Shown here: one piece after another, positions 27,799 to 39,323 of the stretch | Layout: the number at the start of each line of letters is the position of its first letter | How positions within the stretch are numbered: position 1 is the first letter of the stretch | Assembly (NCBI RefSeq): GCF_900291465.1 | Contig: NZ_LT985808.1 | Span: 1,065,731-1,105,053, forward strand | Source of the DNA: Bacteroides sp. Marseille-P3684 | GTDB taxonomy: Bacteria; Bacteroidota; Bacteroidia; Bacteroidales; Bacteroidaceae | Direction of reading: 5' to 3' | DNA: 39,323 nt | Notes under the pieces: generated by a model | What the model was told of the DNA's origin: nothing | The model's input: only the letters and a program-made list of their open reading frames with translations | Databases searched by the model: none | Translations under genes and position numbers: made by a program

Positions 27799-29340
<1,542 letters not shown>

Positions 29341-29371
29341 AGGTAGTGTGGTTTATTGTAACATACAGCTA

Positions 29372-29379
29372 CAAATGTA
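29372..29379 (-). promoter_or_regulatory. -7 promoter box of the GH51 gene
   Basis: The minus strand reads TACATTTG, about 32 bases before the ATG. A full TAnnTTTG match; no -33 TTTG at the right distance. Confidence 0.5.
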
Positions 29380-29427
29380 CGCCAAAAAAGGCTAAACGGA
29401 GTACATCTGCCGGCTGTATATGTATGT

Positions 29428-29490
29428 TTACTTGCTTTTCTTGCCCCAGTAGGTCTTGCCGGTGTTGGCGTAGGCTGATGTTATCTGCAT
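29428..29490 (-). other. 20-codon frame, gene tail or micro-ORF
   Basis: The minus strand encodes MQITSAYANTGKTYWGKKSK and stops. The GC-rich codons match the core genes and differ from the AT-rich DNA around it. It may be the tail of a lost gene or a tiny protein. No ribosome binding site stands out. Confidence 0.25.
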
Positions 29491-29594
29491 GTGAGGTGCA
29501 GGAAATCAGAAGAATAGTTTAAGTACTAAAAGTTAAAACAATACATTAACATTCTTATTTAACATTTAAGAAATGGGAATTTATAGCTTCTTTC

Positions 29595-29602
29595 TACCTT
29601 TG
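29595..29602 (+). promoter_or_regulatory. -7 promoter box of the first susC-susD pair
   Basis: TACCTTTG, a full match, leaving a leader of about 45 bases to the ATG at 29655. Confidence 0.5.
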
Positions 29603-29654
29603 TGCATGAAATCATTTCCTTTTTACTAAACCTATTTATTAACAACCTGACCTT

Positions 29655-32600
29655 ATGATGAAAAACAAGGCAAACAGTGAACGCTTCTTCAGCGTCACGA
29701 AAACTTCTTTTATCTGGGGAATTTCCAGTCTGTTGATAGCAGCTCCTCTTTCTGCCAAAGTGGCGTGGGGGGGGGTGAAAACGACTAATCCTCAGGAGGT
29801 TTTACAATCCAAGACCGTATCCGGTCAAGTGCTCGATGAGAAAGGCGAACCCATGATTGGCGTTTCCGTTTTGGTGAAGGGAACGAAAGTGGGCGTCATC
29901 ACAGACATCGAGGGAAACTTCAAGCTCACAGCTCCGTCCGGAGCAACCGTCCTCCAATTAACTTATATGGGTTATAAACCCCAGAACGTGCGCATAGAGG
30001 CCGCACCGCTCATCATCCATATGCAACCGGAGGAACAGCAGCTTGATGAAGTTGTTGTGGTGGGCTACGGCAGCGTACGCAAACGCGACCTGACAGGCTC
30101 TGTAGCTTCTGTTGGGGCGGACAAGCTGAAAGAGCGTTCTTATGGCAATGCGCTGCAATCGATGGCTGGACAAGTGTCTGGTGTACAGATTACACAGACT
30201 CAGGGAGCACCGGGTATGGCTCCTACCATCAAGGTACGTGGTGCTTCTTCCATCAATGCCGGGACAGCTCCGCTTTATGTCATCGATGGTATCCCATTGG
30301 AGGACAATACCTCCTCTACAGGGAGCAACGGTACGTCTAAGAATATGACGTTCAATCGTAATCCTTTGAATAATATTAATCCCAACGATATAGAGTCTAT
30401 AGAGATTCTGAAAGATGCTTCCTCTGCTGCCATTTATGGTTCCCGTGGAGCGAATGGCGTAGTCTTGATAACGACCAAGCAGGGTAAGGCGGGCAAAACA
30501 AGAGTAGAAGGTAACTATGAGTTTGGTATTACCAGAGTGAACCGCCGGGTAGATGTCATGGATGCCAAGCAGTGGATTGAGTTTGAAATAGCTGCCCGCA
30601 ATAATACTTGGGCTACTATATTGAAGAAGAATCCGAATGCCAAGCGAGGCAATGATACGGCCATACCTGTTGAGTTCTCCGATCCGGAATGGCTGGAGCG
30701 CATAGGAAACGGTACTGACTGGGAGGATGTGCTGCTGCGAACCGCATTGACACACAATGCACAGATTTCGGCTTCAGGTGGTTCTGAAAAAACACAGTTT
30801 ATGCTGTCGGCCGGCTATTTGAATCAAGAAGGAGTTGTGATTGAGAACGATTACAACCGTCTGTCATTACGCAGTAATGTGAATCATCAGTTTAATGAGC
30901 GGCTGAATGCGAGTGTCAAGATCGCTTTGACTCGTTCCAATGACTCTTCTTATGGAACCGCTGGAAAGTCGGATGCGGTCAGTCTGGCCTTGCAGAGCGA
31001 CCCGATTTTTCCTTTGCGGGTAGAAACGGGTTCCCTTGGATTTAAAGACCCTCAGTCCATGTGGAACACTTTCGATAAATATGGCTTTCAACTATGGCAT
31101 CCCTATTCCTTGACGCGCGAAATGTCTAAAAAGAAGACTACTGATATCGTTTTGCTCAACACGGCTATTGACTATAAGATTTTGGACGGGTTGAATTTTA
31201 AAACAGCTTTTAATGCGAATGTGGAGGACTCTCACTATAGTTCCTACTGGAATGATGGGCAGGATTATGGATATTCCATGTGGGTGGATGCTACAGCGGA
31301 TTTCGTCACAATGCGTTCTACAAACTGGGTTTGGGAAAACACGCTCAATTACAATCAGACGATTCGTGCTGACCATAATCTGACTGGACTTTTGGGTTAT
31401 ACGATGCAAGAGCAGTCTATGGAATTCGGCAATATGACAGCTGGCTCTTTCCCCAATGACTTGGTGCATACATTGAATGCCGGAAAGGTGAAGAACGGCT
31501 CCACTTCGGCTACGGAGTGGGCATTGATCTCTTTCCTCGCACGTGCAACCTATTCCTACAAGGGGAAATACATGGCATCGGCAGCGTTGCGTGCTGACGG
31601 ATGCTCGCGTTTCGGAGTCAATAATCGCTGGGGGTATTTCCCTTCCGTATCATTGGCTTGGCGTGTTTCGGAAGAGGAATTTATGCGTTCGCTGCCATGG
31701 TTGGACAATCTGAAACTGCGTGTCAGCTATGGAGAGACTGGAAATAACCAGATTCCTGATTACGGAGCCATCGGACTGCTCAGTTATAACTCGTATGTGG
31801 AGAATGGGGCTGTAAAGCAGGGTATCTATACCGGTACATTCCCTGACCCGGACCTGAAATGGGAAAAGACGGGGCAGGTGAATCTTGGTCTGGATGCCTC
31901 TCTGCTCAACAGCCGGATTAATTTGTCTCTTGACGTGTATTATTCCAAGACGCGTGACTTGTTGCTGGATGTCCCCATTCCGGTATTGACGGGCTTCCAG
32001 TCTCGTCTTACGAATATCGGAGAGTTGGAGAACCGTGGTGTGGAGTTCTCTCTCTCGACACACAATGTGGAGGGTGCTTTTACTTGGACTACGGACTTCA
32101 ATATCTCAGCCAATCGCAATAAGGTTCTGAAGTTAGGAGCCAACGATGCTCCAATCCTGGTCAATACGAACGATGCTATCTCCAAAACGGAAGTCGGGCA
32201 ACCCATCGGCAACTACTATGGTTATGTCTTCGACGGTGTATTGAGCTCTGCCAACATTGCCTCCGGACTGCCTGTATATCCCGGGAGTGAAGCTGGAGAT
32301 CCCAAAGTGCGCGATGTGGATGAGAATGGTATCATTAATGCGGATGACCGCACCATTTTAGGTAACTATCAGCCTGACTTCACATGGGGACTCACAAACA
32401 ACTTCAGTTATAAAGGAATTGAATTGTCAATCATGCTTACAGGATCGCAAGGTGGTGAAATAATGAACCAACAGTCGCGTTTCCTGAAGGAGTTTAACGG
32501 AAACCGGAATGCCTATGCCTATGTGAGCAACTTCTGGCGTTCGGATGAGGAACCGGGTGACGGACATATCTTCAAGCCCCGTGTGACGCAGAATACAGTA

Positions 32601-32876
32601 CAGGCACAGAGCTCCAGCTATTGGGTGGAAGACGGTTCTTTTGTACGGATCAAGAACGTACGTTTGGGATACAACTTCCCCAAGGCTTGGCTCTCAAAGC
32701 TGAAAATCAACAACCTGAAGGCGTATCTGAATTTTGAGAATGTCTACGTCTTTTCAGACTACTCCAACTATGACCCTGAGGGCAGTACATTCCAGTCTGG
32801 GTATCGTGTGGGTTATGATTATGGTGCCTATCCGAATCCTTTTGCGGCAACGTTGGGAATTAGCTTAGGTTTCTGA
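29655..32876 (+). CDS. SusC/RagA-type TonB-linked outer-membrane transporter (frame open at G9 tract)
   Basis: A 1073-residue outer-membrane channel that, with the SusD lipoprotein, imports oligosaccharides by TonB energy. The signal peptide ends near PLSA (33). A carboxypeptidase-regulatory-like domain follows (about 53-130, VSGQVLDEKGEPMIGVSVLV). The conserved DEVVVVGYGSVRKRDLTGSV and a plug (ALQSMAGQVSGVQITQTQGA, then IKVRGASSINAGTAPLYVID and ILKDASSAAIYGSRGANGVV) precede the barrel, which ends in YPNPFAATLGISLGF. Just after the signal peptide the codons for Trp38-Gly-Gly-Val41 contain nine consecutive G (29767-29775). The frame is open with nine; a gain or loss of one G would stop it. The susD gene follows after 45 bases. 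Confidence 0.93.
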   Translation: MMKNKANSERFFSVTKTSFIWGISSLLIAAPLSAKVAWGGVKTTNPQEVLQSKTVSGQVLDEKGEPMIGVSVLVKGTKVGVITDIEGNFKLTAPSGATVLQLTYMGYKPQNVRIEAAPLIIHMQPEEQQLDEVVVVGYGSVRKRDLTGSVASVGADKLKERSYGNALQSMAGQVSGVQITQTQGAPGMAPTIKVRGASSINAGTAPLYVIDGIPLEDNTSSTGSNGTSKNMTFNRNPLNNINPNDIESIEILKDASSAAIYGSRGANGVVLITTKQGKAGKTRVEGNYEFGITRVNRRVDVMDAKQWIEFEIAARNNTWATILKKNPNAKRGNDTAIPVEFSDPEWLERIGNGTDWEDVLLRTALTHNAQISASGGSEKTQFMLSAGYLNQEGVVIENDYNRLSLRSNVNHQFNERLNASVKIALTRSNDSSYGTAGKSDAVSLALQSDPIFPLRVETGSLGFKDPQSMWNTFDKYGFQLWHPYSLTREMSKKKTTDIVLLNTAIDYKILDGLNFKTAFNANVEDSHYSSYWNDGQDYGYSMWVDATADFVTMRSTNWVWENTLNYNQTIRADHNLTGLLGYTMQEQSMEFGNMTAGSFPNDLVHTLNAGKVKNGSTSATEWALISFLARATYSYKGKYMASAALRADGCSRFGVNNRWGYFPSVSLAWRVSEEEFMRSLPWLDNLKLRVSYGETGNNQIPDYGAIGLLSYNSYVENGAVKQGIYTGTFPDPDLKWEKTGQVNLGLDASLLNSRINLSLDVYYSKTRDLLLDVPIPVLTGFQSRLTNIGELENRGVEFSLSTHNVEGAFTWTTDFNISANRNKVLKLGANDAPILVNTNDAISKTEVGQPIGNYYGYVFDGVLSSANIASGLPVYPGSEAGDPKVRDVDENGIINADDRTILGNYQPDFTWGLTNNFSYKGIELSIMLTGSQGGEIMNQQSRFLKEFNGNRNAYAYVSNFWRSDEEPGDGHIFKPRVTQNTVQAQSSSYWVEDGSFVRIKNVRLGYNFPKAWLSKLKINNLKAYLNFENVYVFSDYSNYDPEGSTFQSGYRVGYDYGAYPNPFAATLGISLGF
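29767..29775 (+). repeat. G9 homopolymer in susC, in-frame state
   Basis: Nine consecutive G in TGG GGG GGG GTG just after the signal-peptide region. A tract of the same length lies at the same place in the second susC gene (36402-36410). Such tracts slip during replication. Confidence 0.8.
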
Positions 32877-32921
32877 TATACACCAGTTTCTTCTCTTTTG
32901 AACCAATCTAGATATAGAATC

Positions 32922-34340
32922 ATGAAAACAATAAATATTCTTTTGGCATCCTTCTCATTCGTGCTCATGAGCGGATGCGACAGTTTCCTGGACCGTCAAC
33001 CCATCTCCAATGCATATGCAGATCAATTCTACCAGACGGAAAGTGACTTTCAAACAGCACTCACAGCTGCTTATCACACGCTGTATACTATCTACTCACC
33101 GGAGGGACTATCCTCTTTCTTCGGAGAGCTGATGTCGGATAATGCATGCAATGAGAGCACAGCTGGCAATGTGAAGGATTTTGAGGCCTTTGATACGCAT
33201 GTGGGTATGGATGCAAATAGCACATTGGTATTGAACTATTGGAATCAGTACTATGAATCACTCTATGTCATCAACAATGTGTTGGAACGTAGTGAGGAGG
33301 CCTCTTTCTCGCATAAGGAGGCTTTGCAGGCGGAAGCGCGATTCCTTCGGGCACTCTATTATTTCAACATGACACGTGCCTGGGGAGACATTCCTTTAGT
33401 CTTGCACCCGGTCAGTGTGAAAGAGGCACTCAGGCAGGGACGTACCCCACAGGCACAGGTCTATGAGACCATTATCCAAGACCTGCAGTTCGGCATTGAC
33501 AACTTGCCAGACAAGCAGCACGAGCGTTTTGCTGGTGCTGCAACTTCAGATGCAGCCTGTGCATTGTTGGGAAAAGTCTATCTGACGTTGAACAGGAAGG
33601 CGGAAGCAGCAGCTGTGTTGAACAAGCTGTATGGCAAATTTACGCTCTTACCTCATTATGAGGATCTTTGGGATTTGAACCATAAAAATAGTGCAGAGTC
33701 AATATTTGAGATTCAATATAAGGGGGGTGCAGGAAATCCCTATAGCTTGTATTGGTCCATGTTCACTCCTGTGGATAACCATGTCTTGACGGCGTGGGGT
33801 GGAGGTTTGAATCAGGTTACTGACGACCTTTGGAATGCCTATGAACAGGGGGACCCACGACGGGATATTACGATTCAGGATGGTTATTACAAGAAGAATG
33901 GTGACAAGGTGAATACACGTTTCACCATCAAGTGGAGGGATGCAGATGCAGAGAAGAACGGCTCTCGGGAAGCGGCAGATAACAATTTTATCGTCCTTCG
34001 TTATGCGGATGTACTTCTGATGCTCACGGAGGCTACCGGTGATGCTACATACTTGAATGAGGTACGGCAGAGAGTTGGTATGCCACTGTATGGGACTCCC
34101 GGATACCCGGCTGATCGCTATCCAACCGTTGCGTTGGCTTGTGAACATGAGAGGCAGGTAGAACTGGCAATGGAGTTTCATCGCTGGTTTGATCTGATAC
34201 GGACGGGTAGAGCCATCGAGGTGCTCAAAAATAGTTCGAAACATGTCACGCTCACGCCGGGGCAACTTTTGTTGCCAATTCCTCTTGATGTCATTTCTCA
34301 GAATCCGGACGTGATGACTCAAAATGAAGCTTATCGTTAG
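32922..34340 (+). CDS. SusD/RagB-type glycan-binding lipoprotein
   Basis: A 472-residue surface lipoprotein that caps the SusC channel and binds glycan. The lipobox is LMSGC (Cys19). The N-terminal SusD-like part has CDSFLDRQPISNAYADQFYQ then TESDFQTALTAAYHTLYTIY, and TPR helices bear ALQAEARFLRALYYFNMTRA with WGDIPLV. The C-terminal RagB/SusD segment has NNFIVLRYADVLLMLTEATG, LNEVRQRVGMP and HERQVELAMEFHRWFDLIRT then GR. ATG 32922 gives a normal signal; a TTG at 32898 would add eight residues and is less likely. Length and motif order are standard. It is followed by a terminator at 34354-34400, so the transcript is susC-susD. Confidence 0.93.
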   Translation: MKTINILLASFSFVLMSGCDSFLDRQPISNAYADQFYQTESDFQTALTAAYHTLYTIYSPEGLSSFFGELMSDNACNESTAGNVKDFEAFDTHVGMDANSTLVLNYWNQYYESLYVINNVLERSEEASFSHKEALQAEARFLRALYYFNMTRAWGDIPLVLHPVSVKEALRQGRTPQAQVYETIIQDLQFGIDNLPDKQHERFAGAATSDAACALLGKVYLTLNRKAEAAAVLNKLYGKFTLLPHYEDLWDLNHKNSAESIFEIQYKGGAGNPYSLYWSMFTPVDNHVLTAWGGGLNQVTDDLWNAYEQGDPRRDITIQDGYYKKNGDKVNTRFTIKWRDADAEKNGSREAADNNFIVLRYADVLLMLTEATGDATYLNEVRQRVGMPLYGTPGYPADRYPTVALACEHERQVELAMEFHRWFDLIRTGRAIEVLKNSSKHVTLTPGQLLLPIPLDVISQNPDVMTQNEAYR

Positions 34341-34523: not shown

Positions 34524-35849
34524 CTACATGTCTTCCATTGACAAAAGCCGGCTCTCTATCTCATACTTGAACAAGACTTTCTTCCGTAGTTCCTCTACTT
34601 TGTGTGCAAACAAATCCGGCTTGAAATTTTTGGATTGTCTTTTCACTTCTGCTACCAAAGCTTTTTTCTCTTCCGCATAGAGTCCGACAATATCTATTTC
34701 ATCCTGGTCTTTGTTGTTCTTGCCTTGCCACCAGGAACCGATGTCTGCAAATTCCTTGCTCTCCATCATCTGTTGGCGGAAATACATTTCCAAAGCCAAG
34801 CCGGAGAATGTCGGGTAATCCTTTTTTATAATATCAGCCAAGCGCTCAAAATTCTGTATCTCTATGTAATTCTGATACTTGATGAAATACCGGAACCAGA
34901 AGCGTAAAAACAAATCTGATACTTCGTAGCGGACGGTTTGAGAACCCTCCTTTGAGAGTATGGGCCGTTTCTTCTTTACCAGATTATAATCCTCTTCCAA
35001 CCTCTTCAATTGTCCGCCCAGGTTCATACCGCCCATCGCATTTTCCATTTCCGGCAGGGTATTCTTACCGTTGGAGATTGCGGACAAGATAGAAAAGTAA
35101 TTGCCGTATTTTTTTCCGAGCTCTTGTATCAGCAAAGCCTGCCCTTCAGTGAGAAAGGATGAATCGGGTTGCAGCATGAAATCGACCATGCTTTCCATGT
35201 TGGTGCATCCATTGTCCATGAACTGCTCAATATATTTGGGAACACCGCCGGTAAAGGTATAGAGTGCCAACAAATCATCTTTCGTATAGTCAGCCTTGTG
35301 ATCTGAGATGATTTCTTTTAATACGGAAGTCGTAAAAGGAGTTAACTTCATGATACTGTCAGCACGACCATACAGCGGCTCTTTCGAATCCCTGAAGATT
35401 TTATTCATAAGGGTATGGACCGAACCACTCACGATAAGATTGACGTGGCTCTGTTTCCTCAGTCGATCCCAAGTATCCTGCATCAAGCTGTAAATTTCTT
35501 GATTGATGTAGTAGAACTCCTGAAATTCATCAATAACCAGATTGTATTTCAGCCGTGTACCCAAATCCATTAAGAAGCGGAATATTTCTGCAAAGTTGAT
35601 AAGTTCCGGTACATAAATATCCAGTGCCTGCCGGATTTCGGAAGTAAAGCGTAAACAGAGATCTGCCTCGTTGCTTCGGCTGACAAACAGATATACCGTA
35701 GGAGTACCCTCGCAGCTTTTGAATATAAGACTGGTCTTGCCGATACGCCGCCTACCGGTAAGTACAGTCATTTGGGAATGCACGGAAAAAGATACTTGGC
35801 GGACCTTGTCTAATGATTCCAATTCCTTTTCTCTATTGTAGAATTTCAT
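34524..35849 (-). CDS. AAA ATPase with C-terminal DUF234-type nuclease-like domain
   Basis: A 441-residue cytosolic protein. The ATPase_2-type NTPase has Walker A GRRRIGKTS at 32-40 and Walker B NLVIDE at 103-108. An arginine/glycine segment ends with the helical GGVPKYIEQF. The C-terminal DUF234 domain has YEVSDLFLRFWFRYF and then a PD-(D/E)xK-like set, DEIDIVG (Asp386) and LVAEVK (Glu401, Lys403). This architecture is common in archaea and Bacteroidota and has no firm function; defence, toxin-like or element maintenance roles have been guessed. It is monocistronic. Its leader contains a 31-base inverted repeat at 35885-35915, a possible operator. Confidence 0.87.
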   Translation of the reverse strand: MKFYNREKELESLDKVRQVSFSVHSQMTVLTGRRRIGKTSLIFKSCEGTPTVYLFVSRSNEADLCLRFTSEIRQALDIYVPELINFAEIFRFLMDLGTRLKYNLVIDEFQEFYYINQEIYSLMQDTWDRLRKQSHVNLIVSGSVHTLMNKIFRDSKEPLYGRADSIMKLTPFTTSVLKEIISDHKADYTKDDLLALYTFTGGVPKYIEQFMDNGCTNMESMVDFMLQPDSSFLTEGQALLIQELGKKYGNYFSILSAISNGKNTLPEMENAMGGMNLGGQLKRLEEDYNLVKKKRPILSKEGSQTVRYEVSDLFLRFWFRYFIKYQNYIEIQNFERLADIIKKDYPTFSGLALEMYFRQQMMESKEFADIGSWWQGKNNKDQDEIDIVGLYAEEKKALVAEVKRQSKNFKPDLFAHKVEELRKKVLFKYEIESRLLSMEDM

Positions 35850-35884
35850 ATTCTTGCTTTTTTATATCCGTTGTATTGTGCAAA

Positions 35885-35915
35885 GTTTACCGTCGTAAAA
35901 TTTACGGTGGTAAAC
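35885..35915. promoter_or_regulatory. Inverted repeat, possible operator of the ATPase gene
   Basis: GTTTACCGTCGTAAA and TTTACGGTGGTAAAC flank a single A and match as inverted repeats at 13 of 15 positions. It sits between the -7 box at 35929-35936 and the ATG at 35849, that is, just after the predicted transcription start. This is a typical repressor position, but a leader hairpin is also possible. Confidence 0.55.
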
Positions 35916-35928
35916 TTTCAGCCGACAG

Positions 35929-35936
35929 CAAAGTTA
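35929..35936 (-). promoter_or_regulatory. -7 promoter box of the ATPase gene
   Basis: The minus strand reads TAACTTTG, a full match to TAnnTTTG, about 80 bases before the start codon. Confidence 0.5.
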
Positions 35937-36198
35937 CTAATAAATCAGGAAATACAATATAATTCAGGCATTGCTCATCTGCAAACTTCATTGCCACCCC
36001 ACTTTCCCACCCTAATATCCCACTCATGATAAATAAGTTTACATCTCCCTTCTCCTTGCTTCCAGGTAATCCTTGTCCCTATCGTTCGGTTTGAATCACT
36101 CTTCCGGATAGTATTGTTTGATTATTTATTTTTACTATATGTGTGGTATATGTCATTAAAATAACAACTTTTTTACTTATTTGATACAAATATTTTCA
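35937..36198. other. Gene-free stretch between divergent genes
   Basis: AT-rich, with no supported gene. It separates the minus-strand ATPase from the second susC promoter. Confidence 0.3.
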
Positions 36199-36206
36199 TA
36201 CATTTG
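36199..36206 (+). promoter_or_regulatory. -7 promoter box of the second susC gene
   Basis: TACATTTG, a full match, leaving a leader of about 90 bases to the ATG at 36303. TTTG lies 15 bases upstream, which is shorter than the usual spacing. Confidence 0.5.
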
Positions 36207-36302
36207 CAAGGTGAAACGCTTCCGTTGTTCATTGCTGTGAGGGTAGGGAGACGGAGGCAGTGTACAAGTTCCCAAATATCCATAAATTTAAACCAACTCA
36301 TT

Positions 36303-37738
36303 ATGAGAGAGGACAGACACCTATGGAGGGCAATGAAGCGACCTTTGCTCTTTGCCTGCTATCTGTTTGCAGCACAGATGGTTGTTGCAAATTCCGTGGG
36401 AGGGGGGGGGTAATTTTGAAGGAGTAGAGACTCAGCAAAGTCCCCAACCTGGTAAACGAACCATTACCGGCGTGGTGCTTGACACACAAGGAGAACCGCT
36501 CCCCGGTGCCAGCATTTACGTGAAAGGAGACACTCGAAACGGTGTCACAGCCGACGCCAATGGACGATTTACGCTTGCCGTCCCGGCGAAAACCAAAGCC
36601 ATCATTGTGTCGTTCGTCGGCATGGAGCAGCAGGAAGTGGTCCTGCTTGACCGGACGGATGAATACAGCGTCCGCCTGCAAAGCAGCACAACAATCGACG
36701 AGGTAGTCGTTACCGGTATCGTGACCAAGCGGAAAGATACCTTCACCGGTTCATCGGCTAGCTTCAGTGGCGAAGAACTGAAAGCCGTGGGCGTGCAGAA
36801 TCCTCTGGCTAGCCTTCGCAGCCTCGACCCCTCCTTCAACCTGATGGAAAGTGACCTCTTCGGTTCAGACCCGAACCGTCTGCCGGACATCGAGATTCGC
36901 GGCAAGTCCAGCATCATGGGTATGCGCGACGAAGTGTCCGAGGACCCCAACCAACCGCTTTTTATCCTCGACGGTTTCGAGAGTACGCTGGAAACCATCT
37001 ACAACCTTGACATCAACCGCATCGCTTCGATGACTATCTTGAAGGATGCCGCCTCCACCGCCATCTACGGTTCGAAGGCAGCCAACGGCGTAGTGGTTGT
37101 AGAGACCGTGCAGCCTCAACCCGGACAACTCCGCCTGAGCTACAACGGCTCCATGGACATCTCCTGGCCTGACCTGACGAGCTACAACCTGATGAATTCA
37201 AGGGAGAAACTGGAGTTTGAACGACTGGCGGGGAAATATGACGGTGGAACGGCTGATGAGTTGATTGAGAAGGATAATCTTTACCAAAAGCACCTGGCTG
37301 ATATAGCGAGTGGGGTTGATACCTATTGGTTGTCGGAACCTTTGCGTACGGGTATTAACCATCGTCACCAATTATATGCAGATGGTGGAGCCGGTGGATT
37401 CATGTTTGGTATTGGTTTGAACTATAACGGGGTGACCGGTGTGATGAAAGGTTCGGACCGTGATGTGCTGGGAGCTAACATTGACTTGATTTACCGGGTA
37501 GGCAAATTGCAGTTTACCAATAAGTTTACTGCCCAACAGACTAAATATACCAATCCGATCGTTCCCTTTAGCGACTATGCTGAAGCCAGTCCCTATTACA
37601 AAAAATACAATGAGGATGGTGAAGTGGAGCGTTGGTTGTCCAATAATGATTATGAGCCGAATGTGGGCAATCCATTGTACAATGCTTCATTGAATAGTCG
37701 GGATGAGACGAAGGATTTCCAACTTTCTGATTATTTCC
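36303..37738 (+). pseudogene. Second SusC-type transporter: G9 tract out of frame and 3' end lost to an IS
   Basis: ATG 36303 begins MREDRHLWRAMKRPLLFACY then LFAAQMVVANSVGGGG and hits TAA at 36411-36413, directly after nine G (36402-36410). One base out of phase the SusC protein continues: NFEGVETQQSPQPGKRTITG, the regulatory-like domain (VVLDTQGEPLPGASIYVKGD), DEVVVTGIVTKRKDTFTGSS, a plug (IEIRGKSSIMGMRDEV and ILKDAASTAIYGSKAANGVV) and the first barrel strands. With eight G (or eleven) signal peptide and body would be one frame, so the gene is in an OFF state. It is also broken at about 37738 by an IS1634-like element after QLSDYF, leaving roughly 470 of 1000 residues. No susD is in view; it would lie beyond the IS. 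Confidence 0.85.
36402..36410 (+). repeat. G9 homopolymer in second susC, out-of-frame state
   Basis: Nine G between GTGGGA and TAATTTTGAA. With this length the signal-peptide frame ends at TAA; loss of one G or gain of two restores the full frame. Confidence 0.85.
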
Positions 37739-39323
37739 TGACTTTGACAGCTTGATATTTCAACAATTGTAACATTTTTAAAATCAGCCATTCCAGAAAA
37801 TCTTCATGGTGACGCGGGTGACGCAAACCTAAAATGAGTACCTTTATGGCATGTTTGTACGCAAGAAAAAGAACCGTAGCGGCACTGTGAGCGTGGTTAT
37901 CGCAGACAAGAGCAGTGGCAAGTTCAAGGAGCTTAAGACAATTGGAGTATCGTCTGCCCCCGACGAGATTGTTCGCCTTGAGGTCAAAGCGCGTCAATGG
38001 ATAGACGAATATTCCGGTCAGATGACACTTGACTTTGACGAGAGCGCTCAGGCGCTCCAAGAAGCGAGAAATACCATTGCGCGCATCGAGAGGACGCTCC
38101 AGAACACGCCACAAGTTATCCTCGGCCACATATATGACAGAATTGGCTTTGGAGTAATCGGGGACAGCATTTTGCGCCATCTCGTCATCGCAAGGGTCTG
38201 TCATCCGCAGAGCAAGGTTGCCACAGCGTCGTATCTGAAGTCCTACTTCGACGAAGACGTTCGGTTACATAACATCTACCGCTATATGGACAAGCTGTAT
38301 AATACGCAGCGCGAGAAGGTCCAGCGGATAAGCGTAGAGCACACGATGAGGATTCTCGGCGGACGGATTGGGGTCGTTTTCTACGATGTGACCACACTTT
38401 ACTTCGAGTCCGCACCACAGCCGGACGATGTTCTTCGTCAGGCAGGCTTCTCAAAGGACGGCAAGATGGCAGAATCGCAGATAGTCCTCGGACTGCTGGT
38501 GAGCGAGGACGGCTACCCGATGTCCTACTCTATCTTCAACGGCAGCCAGTACGAGGGGCGCACAATGATTCCCGTAATCGATGACTTTGTCCAGCGCTTC
38601 AAGCTGACAGACTTCATCGTTGTGGCCGACTCGGGCCTTATGAACACAAAGAATGTGGAGCTGCTGGAATCCGCCGGCTACCGGTATATTATCGGGGCGA
38701 GAATCCGAAACGAGTCTCCAAAGATTAAAGACTGGATTCTTGCAATTGACAGGACGGACGGGAACATTATTGAATGTTGCAAGAATGATTGCCAGAGGCT
38801 GGTTGTGAGCTATTCAGATGCACGGGCAAAGAAAAACGCATGGAACCGCAACAAAGGCGTCGATAGACTCCGCAAGGCCTATGCGAAAGGTACTCTGACC
38901 AAGGACAACGTCAATAAGCGAGGCTACAACAAATTTCTCGATATCAGCAAGGACATAACCGTAAGTATCAATGAGGAAAAGATAGCAGAAGACAGTCTTT
39001 GGGATGGACTGAAGGGGTATATAACGAATACGACCCTGTCCGGGAAAGAGGTCATATCACAATACCATGGCCTTTGGATGGTTGAGAGGGCTTTCCGTAT
39101 TGGCAAAGGGACGCTCGAGATGCGTCCAATGTTCCATTTTACGGAGAAACGTATCGAGGCCCATATCTGCATCTGCTTTGTAGCCTACAAGGTGTATAAG
39201 GAACTTGAACGGGTCATCAGAGAAGTCGGCATGAAGATGAGCGTTGACAAGGTTCTTGAAATCGCCAAGACAATAACGACGCTCAGAATAAGGCTGCCCA
39301 ACGGCTCGGTATATACTGAGACT
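37736..39323 (+). mobile_element. IS1634-like insertion sequence, left end and most of its length
   Basis: The left end CCTGACTTTGACAGC interrupts the second susC gene and is followed by a leader of about 110 bases and the transposase. The first ~250 bases are repeated almost identically at 4787-5037 in inverted orientation. The right end is beyond the window. Confidence 0.85.
37851..39323 (+). CDS. IS1634-family DDE transposase (3' end outside window)
   Basis: An open frame of 491 codons from ATG 37851 runs off the window without a stop. It begins MFVRKKKNRSGTVSVVIADK, has a helical N-terminal part, then the DDE catalytic region: VVFYDVTTLYFES (first Asp), DFIVVADSGLMNTKN (second Asp), and YHGLWMVERAFRIGKGTLEM with the glutamate. 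HICICFVAYKVYKELERVI and ITTLRIRLP follow, so only the last few dozen residues are missing, judging by the relative at 1-402. The long frame without damage and the near-identical second copy of its 5' end suggest that the element is active or was so recently. Confidence 0.85.
   Translation, partial: MFVRKKKNRSGTVSVVIADKSSGKFKELKTIGVSSAPDEIVRLEVKARQWIDEYSGQMTLDFDESAQALQEARNTIARIERTLQNTPQVILGHIYDRIGFGVIGDSILRHLVIARVCHPQSKVATASYLKSYFDEDVRLHNIYRYMDKLYNTQREKVQRISVEHTMRILGGRIGVVFYDVTTLYFESAPQPDDVLRQAGFSKDGKMAESQIVLGLLVSEDGYPMSYSIFNGSQYEGRTMIPVIDDFVQRFKLTDFIVVADSGLMNTKNVELLESAGYRYIIGARIRNESPKIKDWILAIDRTDGNIIECCKNDCQRLVVSYSDARAKKNAWNRNKGVDRLRKAYAKGTLTKDNVNKRGYNKFLDISKDITVSINEEKIAEDSLWDGLKGYITNTTLSGKEVISQYHGLWMVERAFRIGKGTLEMRPMFHFTEKRIEAHICICFVAYKVYKELERVIREVGMKMSVDKVLEIAKTITTLRIRLPNGSVYTET

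Follow-up and report, generated by a model that had tools for sequence, protein, structure and literature searches.

The gene for a SusC-type transporter that starts at position 36303 of the DNA analysed here is broken by a run of nine G (G9) directly behind its signal-peptide frame. This stretch, referred to as the window, comprises 39,323 nucleotides and lies on contig C1 (1065731-1105053) of the host genome (G000; 3.71 Mb in 3 contigs). The host is a Phocaeicola relative; its nearest neighbours among the named genomes scanned are P. coprophilus An818, with 89-90% amino-acid identity, and a MAG of an uncultured Phocaeicola. From the observed positions, frames, enrichment, conserved place, mixed states and flank motif of such tracts it appears likely, as judged from sequence, that G9 is a contingency tract which mediates slipped-strand phase variation of SusC transporters and of their regulators. 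Replication slippage would alter the length of G9; lengths of one class modulo three would put the signal peptide in frame with the SusC body, and other lengths would stop translation at or shortly after the tract. The 36303 gene would have been caught out of frame and a second gene, at 29655, in frame, both as members of a set that extends over several species of the genus and takes in susC linkers, promoter boxes and regulators (hybrid two-component sensors and FecR proteins). We infer that tract length changes within a population, at some rate, and this would affect nutrient uptake or phage sensitivity.

The initial annotation had drawn the picture of one switched gene. The tract at 36303 is present as described, but it does not stand alone: a second susC with G9 (29655-32876) had been overlooked, and 36303 is one gene of a set found across the genus, in which promoters and regulators are affected as well. 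The features of the window are as follows.

29655..32876, plus strand: second susC, full length, in-frame allele (TIGR04056, 957.6 bits, cut-off 368; 1073 aa).
29767..29775, plus strand: G9 tract of the second susC, directly after the signal peptide, in frame.
32898..34340, plus strand: susD partner of the second susC (SusD-like_3, SusD_RagB).
36199..36206, plus strand: TACATTTG, upstream of ATG 36303, a candidate promoter box matching TAnnTTTG, which we take to be the consensus of the Bacteroidetes -7 box.
36303..36413, plus strand: signal-peptide frame of susC, out-of-frame allele, with TAA directly 3' of the tract.
36402..36410, plus strand: G9 tract of the 36303 gene.
36336..37755, plus strand: SusC body frame (CarboxypepD_reg_2, Plug), ending at a stop within the insertion sequence (IS).
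37642..37737, plus strand: left copy of a 96-bp direct repeat; the right copy lies beyond the window, at the equivalent of 39557-39652.
37738..39323 and on to the equivalent of 39556, plus strand: IS1634-family element, 1819 bp, with a transposase of 506 aa from 37851.
37642-39323 and beyond (L046 3373-5383): the IS with both direct repeats, inside susC.

The frame from ATG 36303 was confirmed to run through 33 codons of signal-peptide-like sequence (MREDRHLWRAMKRPLLFACYLFAAQMVVANSVG) and three GGG codons into TAA at 36411-36413. The claim that the SusC body is readable in another frame was also borne out, by the open frame with its two domain matches. The first part of this body reached 280 bits against TIGR04056 (positions 1-414 of 981), below the whole-protein cut-off of 368 because the protein is truncated; the other piece, scored separately, gave 299 bits (398-981). 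The SusC_RagA signature TIGR04057 was passed by the gene body. The 29655 gene carries Plug and CarboxypepD_reg domains in addition to its score over the TIGR04056 cut-off, which places it in the SusC/RagA family. Apart from the frame break at the tract and the IS, the 36303 gene shows no decay: its frame runs on uninterrupted as far as the natural stop beyond the IS, and a SusD-like start follows next. The promoter of this gene, at TACATTTG, holds no tract. Further upstream an 18-nt near-perfect inverted repeat with a 1-nt loop (35882-35918) lies between a minus-strand ATPase gene and susC 36303, and is a possible operator.

The element that cuts the 36303 gene from 37738 stands between two identical 96-bp direct repeats. 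Its transposase scored 358.5 bits against NF033559 (cut-off 100), which makes it a member of the IS1634 family. Two members of this family make long direct repeats of variable size, from 8 to 514 bp, and a mechanistic model for such long target duplications is said to be lacking, according to the passages on these elements in PMC2266710. Since the repeats are identical, the insertion looks recent. With the gene interrupted in this way, slippage alone could not yield a full-length product or switch the copy back to ON. Two lesions silence it, and of these the tract alone belongs to a reversible type. The proposal of a random ON/OFF gene is thus supported in part.

Nine G in a row had been described as rare in DNA of this composition. 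Judged by the window itself, such a run stands out only slightly (the 8-G word has 4 matches against a shuffle mean of 1.23, a count reached in 6 of 100 shuffles), so that window shuffles do not exclude a chance run. The genome-scale counts do exclude it: against 16 runs of at least nine, only two of exactly eight were found in 3.71 Mb, and the 18 runs of at least eight comprise 2 of 8, 12 of 9 and 4 of 10, tracts far longer than expected by chance. Runs of exactly eight were always fewer than those of at least nine in the four genomes compared (2/16, 4/17, 9/34 and 11/50). This is the reverse of the chance decay seen for runs of four to seven G in 599 kb of fetched DNA (1782, 265, 20 and 4, respectively).

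The genome-wide search suggested in the initial annotation placed 7 of the 16 runs of at least nine near the 5' end of susC genes, within ~130 nt of the start; if runs were placed uniformly, the probability of this would be 3.9e-15, with 57 susC genes x 150 nt as target. These are 29767, 36402, L033, L035, L036 and L039 on the plus strand and L041 in the C sense; five are in frame and two out, and a change of length would alter the frame there. L036, out of frame, is otherwise open across 1034 aa. Among the 55 other susC starts of the host genome only L246, itself a tract gene, is out of frame near its start, and L244 has an internal stop.

The comparison within the genus covered 15 genomes, and susC genes with tracts were found in five of them besides the host. 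A set of 120 tracts was analysed, namely all runs of at least nine in G000 (16), G003 (17), G008 (34) and G009 (50) together with three of the 15 in G006. Forty of the 120 lie inside susC coding sequence, either behind the signal peptide or the STN domain or in the surroundings of the CarboxypepD_reg domain, the domain names being assigned by homology to the scanned genes. Altogether 45 susC places were called and seven were left out of the state count: the promoters L149, L169 and L037, the distant or unclear L040 and L043, L164 (start unclear; out of frame by script) and L197 (downstream frame broken; in frame by script). The 38 judged, all from G000, G003, G008 and G009, divide into 27 in frame and 11 out, so that in-frame and out-of-frame alleles of otherwise intact genes occur side by side. 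The in-frame share exceeds one third (P 2e-6), which indicates that the frames are under selection; despite this, out-of-frame susC alleles are common. G001 was kept outside the 120; among the 30 of its 57 runs that were examined at least five lie in susC genes (L268, L275, L276, L289, L292), and one tract in G010 is also in a susC gene (L061).

With 57 runs of at least nine G in G001, one in G004 and none in G005, all of the same genus, the tract set was gained or lost within the genus, and its lack in the last two genomes is counted against a contingency tract. Loss of mismatch repair was rejected as the cause, MutS1 being over the cut-off in 15/15 genus genomes (in G008 the gene is truncated where its contig ends). 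The set is not strictly genus-bound, only mostly so, as judged from one case outside, L079, and from an excess of TGGGGGGGGGTAAA there: this motif occurred 35 times against 2 for the reversed control in the 15 genus genomes and ~70 against ~49 times in 384 family genomes outside the genus (hand sums). None of the 11 loci examined outside the genus has a tract in a SusC gene. In L079 (1502-1561; genus g8, G021) G9-TAAAG precedes a TACTTTTG box by 12 nt and the start codon (ATG) of a receptor with Plug and CarboxypepD_reg domains by 43 nt, a possible promoter switch.

In the family of the 29655 gene (eight members from G000, G008, G009 and G010) the tract aligned at one place, and in 7/8 it is uninterrupted, at 9 or 12 G and with differing frame states. 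The paralogue L214 has GGGAGGGGG where the 29767 tract stands and its frame is open. In the 36303 family, G003 / P. coprophilus An818 (L047) has the interrupted 9-mer GGGGAGGGG, also with an open frame. Homopolymer phase variation of susC, as first proposed, is well supported in the comparison by the homologous tract place in four genomes, the 27 alleles in and 11 out of frame, the interrupted in-frame alleles and the 36303 gene without other decay. The related genes L036 (G000, out) and L177 (G008, in) both have G9 and differ in one base directly after the tract; the difference of state between them does not come from tract length, which counts against a pure length switch. Moreover, lengths of 9 to 12 occur in homologues, yet exactly nine G were found in 35/40 susC coding tracts whatever their frame state (49/80 in the other tracts), so that the flanks determine the state no less than length does. 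Birth of the tracts by block insertion was rejected after alignment of 10 ortholog pairs. In five of them (L140, L158, L165, L185, L186) the tract takes the place of a G/A-rich linker without a change in length, L172 has a 12-nt insertion (C sense) and L160 (coding) and L149 (promoter) have the tract in both orthologs; L168 was not readable and L156 gave no alignment.

Of the 80 tracts that are not in susC coding sequence, seven (L138, L149, L163, L166, L169, L199, L037) are followed by TAnnTTTG, which on the C strand starts at a distance of 13, 14 or 15 nt from the C tract and where a change of length would alter promoter spacing; as a control, three TAnnTTTG were found in positions 18-107 of all 80. 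In the host genome such a C10 tract (L037) precedes a susC, with the TACATTTG box 15 nt on, and L137 and L173 have the box with one mismatch (TACCTTCG). The genes behind the promoter tracts encode SusC (L037, L149, L169), a Sigma70_r2 protein (L138), an LRR protein (L199) and DUF4992, DUF4957 and DUF5123 lipoproteins (L163, L166, L137). A module, CAACAT...ATTTTA-C9/10-N4-6-TTTTTAAC-g-TACnTTTG, recurs upstream of susC, of genes for DUF4992 lipoproteins and of an ECF sigma-like gene. It was seen at L163, L166, L137 and L173, three times before a DUF4992/DUF4957/DUF5123 lipoprotein. Here tract length presumably changes promoter strength.

Regulators also carry tracts, two of them in the host genome, where no clear role was evident for the runs outside susC, its promoter and these sensors. 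L038 (2233-6333) encodes a hybrid two-component sensor (Reg_prop, HisKA, HATPase, receiver, HTH_18) with a C9 tract in frame, and in L045 (3191-7247) a C10 tract divides such a sensor in two, a propeller portion of 574 aa and a portion of 806 aa that holds Y_Y_Y, kinase, receiver and HTH; the hybrid two-component regulator may thus be phase variable itself. FecR anti-sigma genes with G/C tracts in their coding part were confirmed by Pfam in L179 (G008, split) and L131 (G009), and others are L283 and L291 in G001; in L162 a distance of 36 nt separates the tract from the downstream FecR frame, as annotated. In G009, genes for Acyltransferase_3 and hexapeptide transferases lie beside or hold G tracts (L110, L114, L126, L195, L202), which suggests that glycan modification is also switched there.

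The long runs share a flank, AAAA-N6-T-G9-TAAAA. TAA directly follows 64 of the 120 (53%) against 26 of 2,071 runs of four to seven (23/1782, 3/265, 0/20 and 0/4, in order of length; 1/2 for runs of eight). Around the 120, AAA occurs at -11..-6 in 44% and T at -1 in 52%, and the mirror-image flank (AAT before the run) in three. The TAA flank is strongest in G008 (26/34) and weaker in G009 (19/50). Counts of TGGGGGGGGGTAA were 51 against 9 reversed in the 15 genus genomes and 11 against 2 in 46 genomes outside (hand sums). A stop codon as the sole reason for this flank was rejected, since TAA also follows 37/80 tracts outside susC coding sequence and 5/6 C-sense tracts. Being common to coding, non-coding and C-sense cases, the flank is a feature at the DNA level, and slippage does not explain it. 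Interrupted 9-mers followed by TAAA occur near other susC genes, and the interrupted motif GGGGAGGGGTAA was tried and rejected as a fixed element (13, forward and reverse added, against 10 in the reversed control genus-wide, a hand sum; 7 against 2 in G000 and G003). An intergenic repeat (gtaggggcgaccggtc.ggtcgcccggtccaat) is shared by L031 (~4515) and L034 (~4827), close to two of the G runs without the TAA flank.

The clustering of lengths at nine would be produced either by a mutational pull to nine or by a binding site of fixed length. Something like a mutational pull that sets tract length is known for Campylobacter. A tentative and rather doubtful extension is that AAAA-N6-T-G9-TAAAA is a dedicated element, the flanks being recognised by a trans-acting factor of the genus that would hold the length near nine and set the rate of slippage or the transcription of the genes so marked. 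SusC genes, dozens of them, would then be united with their sensors and anti-sigma factors in a single phase-variable regulon under co-ordinated control. This suggestion is retained because lengths cluster at nine, as they also would with a fixed-length binding site.

Against a contingency tract, free slippage is expected to spread the lengths more than 35/40 at G9, and with its second lesion the 36303 copy could simply be a dying gene. That this gene is a decaying pseudogene, with the frame break and the IS as two steps of loss and a tract that has no switching role there, is an unlikely explanation. The two lesions are independent and at least one similar copy is also broken (L048 of P. coprophilus, where similarity is lost after query residue 421), but aside from these lesions the frame continues to the natural stop and into the SusD-like gene, the identical direct repeats speak for a recent IS, and other susC genes of the host carry the tract while being intact. 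It seems improbable that the nine-G block is primarily a DNA or RNA element, such as a protein-binding site or part of a promoter, with the effect on the frame as a by-product. The flank in both orientations to genes and outside genes, the length fixed near nine, the seven promoter-linked cases with a box at 13-15 nt and the interrupted 9-mers followed by TAAA would fit such an element. However, coding tracts cluster in the linkers of one family and 11/38 disrupt the frame, which would be costly if binding were their only function, and GGGGAGGGGTAA is enriched only weakly over its reversed control.

Ribosomal frameshifting or transcript slippage on G9 might give some full-length SusC from the out-of-frame allele, at a low level in every cell. 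G9 is a plausible slippery run and a TAA directly behind it would favour such an event, but tracts outside genes, C-sense tracts and in-frame tracts are left unexplained, which makes this reading very improbable. Finally, a homopolymer error of sequencing or assembly would mean that the real tract keeps the frame and that there is no switch. Homopolymers are error-prone, and the host assembly is probably from long reads, given its only 3 contigs, so that G9 may be miscounted by one. A miscount might change the apparent state of a gene, but it would not give rise to 16 long tracts, to their placement in susC or to the same tracts in other assemblies; moreover, the other tract-bearing genomes are fragmented assemblies in which run lengths also peak at nine, and out-of-frame alleles occur in G003, G008 and G009 too. 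The probability of this explanation is very slight indeed.

Variation of the surface of gut Bacteroidales is credited to DNA inversion, and the contingency tracts proposed here would be a second, independent system that acts importer by importer. If this is true, one clone is a mixture of diets and may also be mixed in its susceptibility to phages, with which SusC-type proteins and other parts of the surface are connected, with sensors and anti-sigma factors flipped in places. A homopolymer switch is invisible to programs that find inversions and is easily lost in annotation as a 'frameshifted pseudogene'. Owing to the shared flank, one can test whether a switch of this kind may be an element of defined sequence.

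Invertible promoters had been named as the known route of phase switching in Bacteroides, and this agrees with PMC11868660 and PMC12632263, whose passages on the subject name DNA inversion and, in the same place, no simple-sequence switching. The words 'slipped' and 'homopolymer' do not occur in PMC12632263, nor do 'homopolymer', 'slipped' and 'frameshift' in PMC12118408. PMC3090145 mentions that slippage might occur at a polysaccharide locus of B. fragilis, where four C stand in a row. A search of the open-licence PMC literature gave no report of homopolymer switching of SusC, which is not proof of absence. As far as this literature was searched, the kind of switch is known, and the host group, the targets and the flank are new.

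Invertase-mediated phase variation of SusC/SusD proteins was reportedly described in Bacteroides fragilis by Nakayama-Imaohji in 2009. The random on/off switching of SusC-type transporters in Bacteroidaceae is common to both systems, whereas that of B. fragilis works by inversion of promoter regions and the present one would work by a change of tract length and frame, without flanking inverted repeats. No inverted repeats with arms of at least 11 nt were found around the 29767 tract (29300-30300) or the 36402 tract (35700-37000, where the only pair, at 35882-35918, is unrelated), and a switch by an invertible promoter was rejected for both. Promoter-spacer homopolymer switches are known of the Bordetella fim and Neisseria porA type. 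These also have a C tract at a fixed distance from a promoter box, but here the box is the Bacteroidetes -7 box TAnnTTTG and the TTTTTAAC module recurs. The meningococcal HmbR/HpuAB receptors are given as an example of poly-G contingency loci in the relevant passage of PMC3786947. Like the poly-G/C loci of Campylobacter, Helicobacter and Neisseria, the tracts described here include poly-G within the frame of outer-membrane nutrient receptors, with lengths of ~9-10, mixed states and both promoter and coding positions. They differ from them in belonging to another phylum and to the SusC/RagA family, in their shared flank motif, in lying repeatedly in interdomain linkers and in including the HTCS and FecR regulators of such loci.
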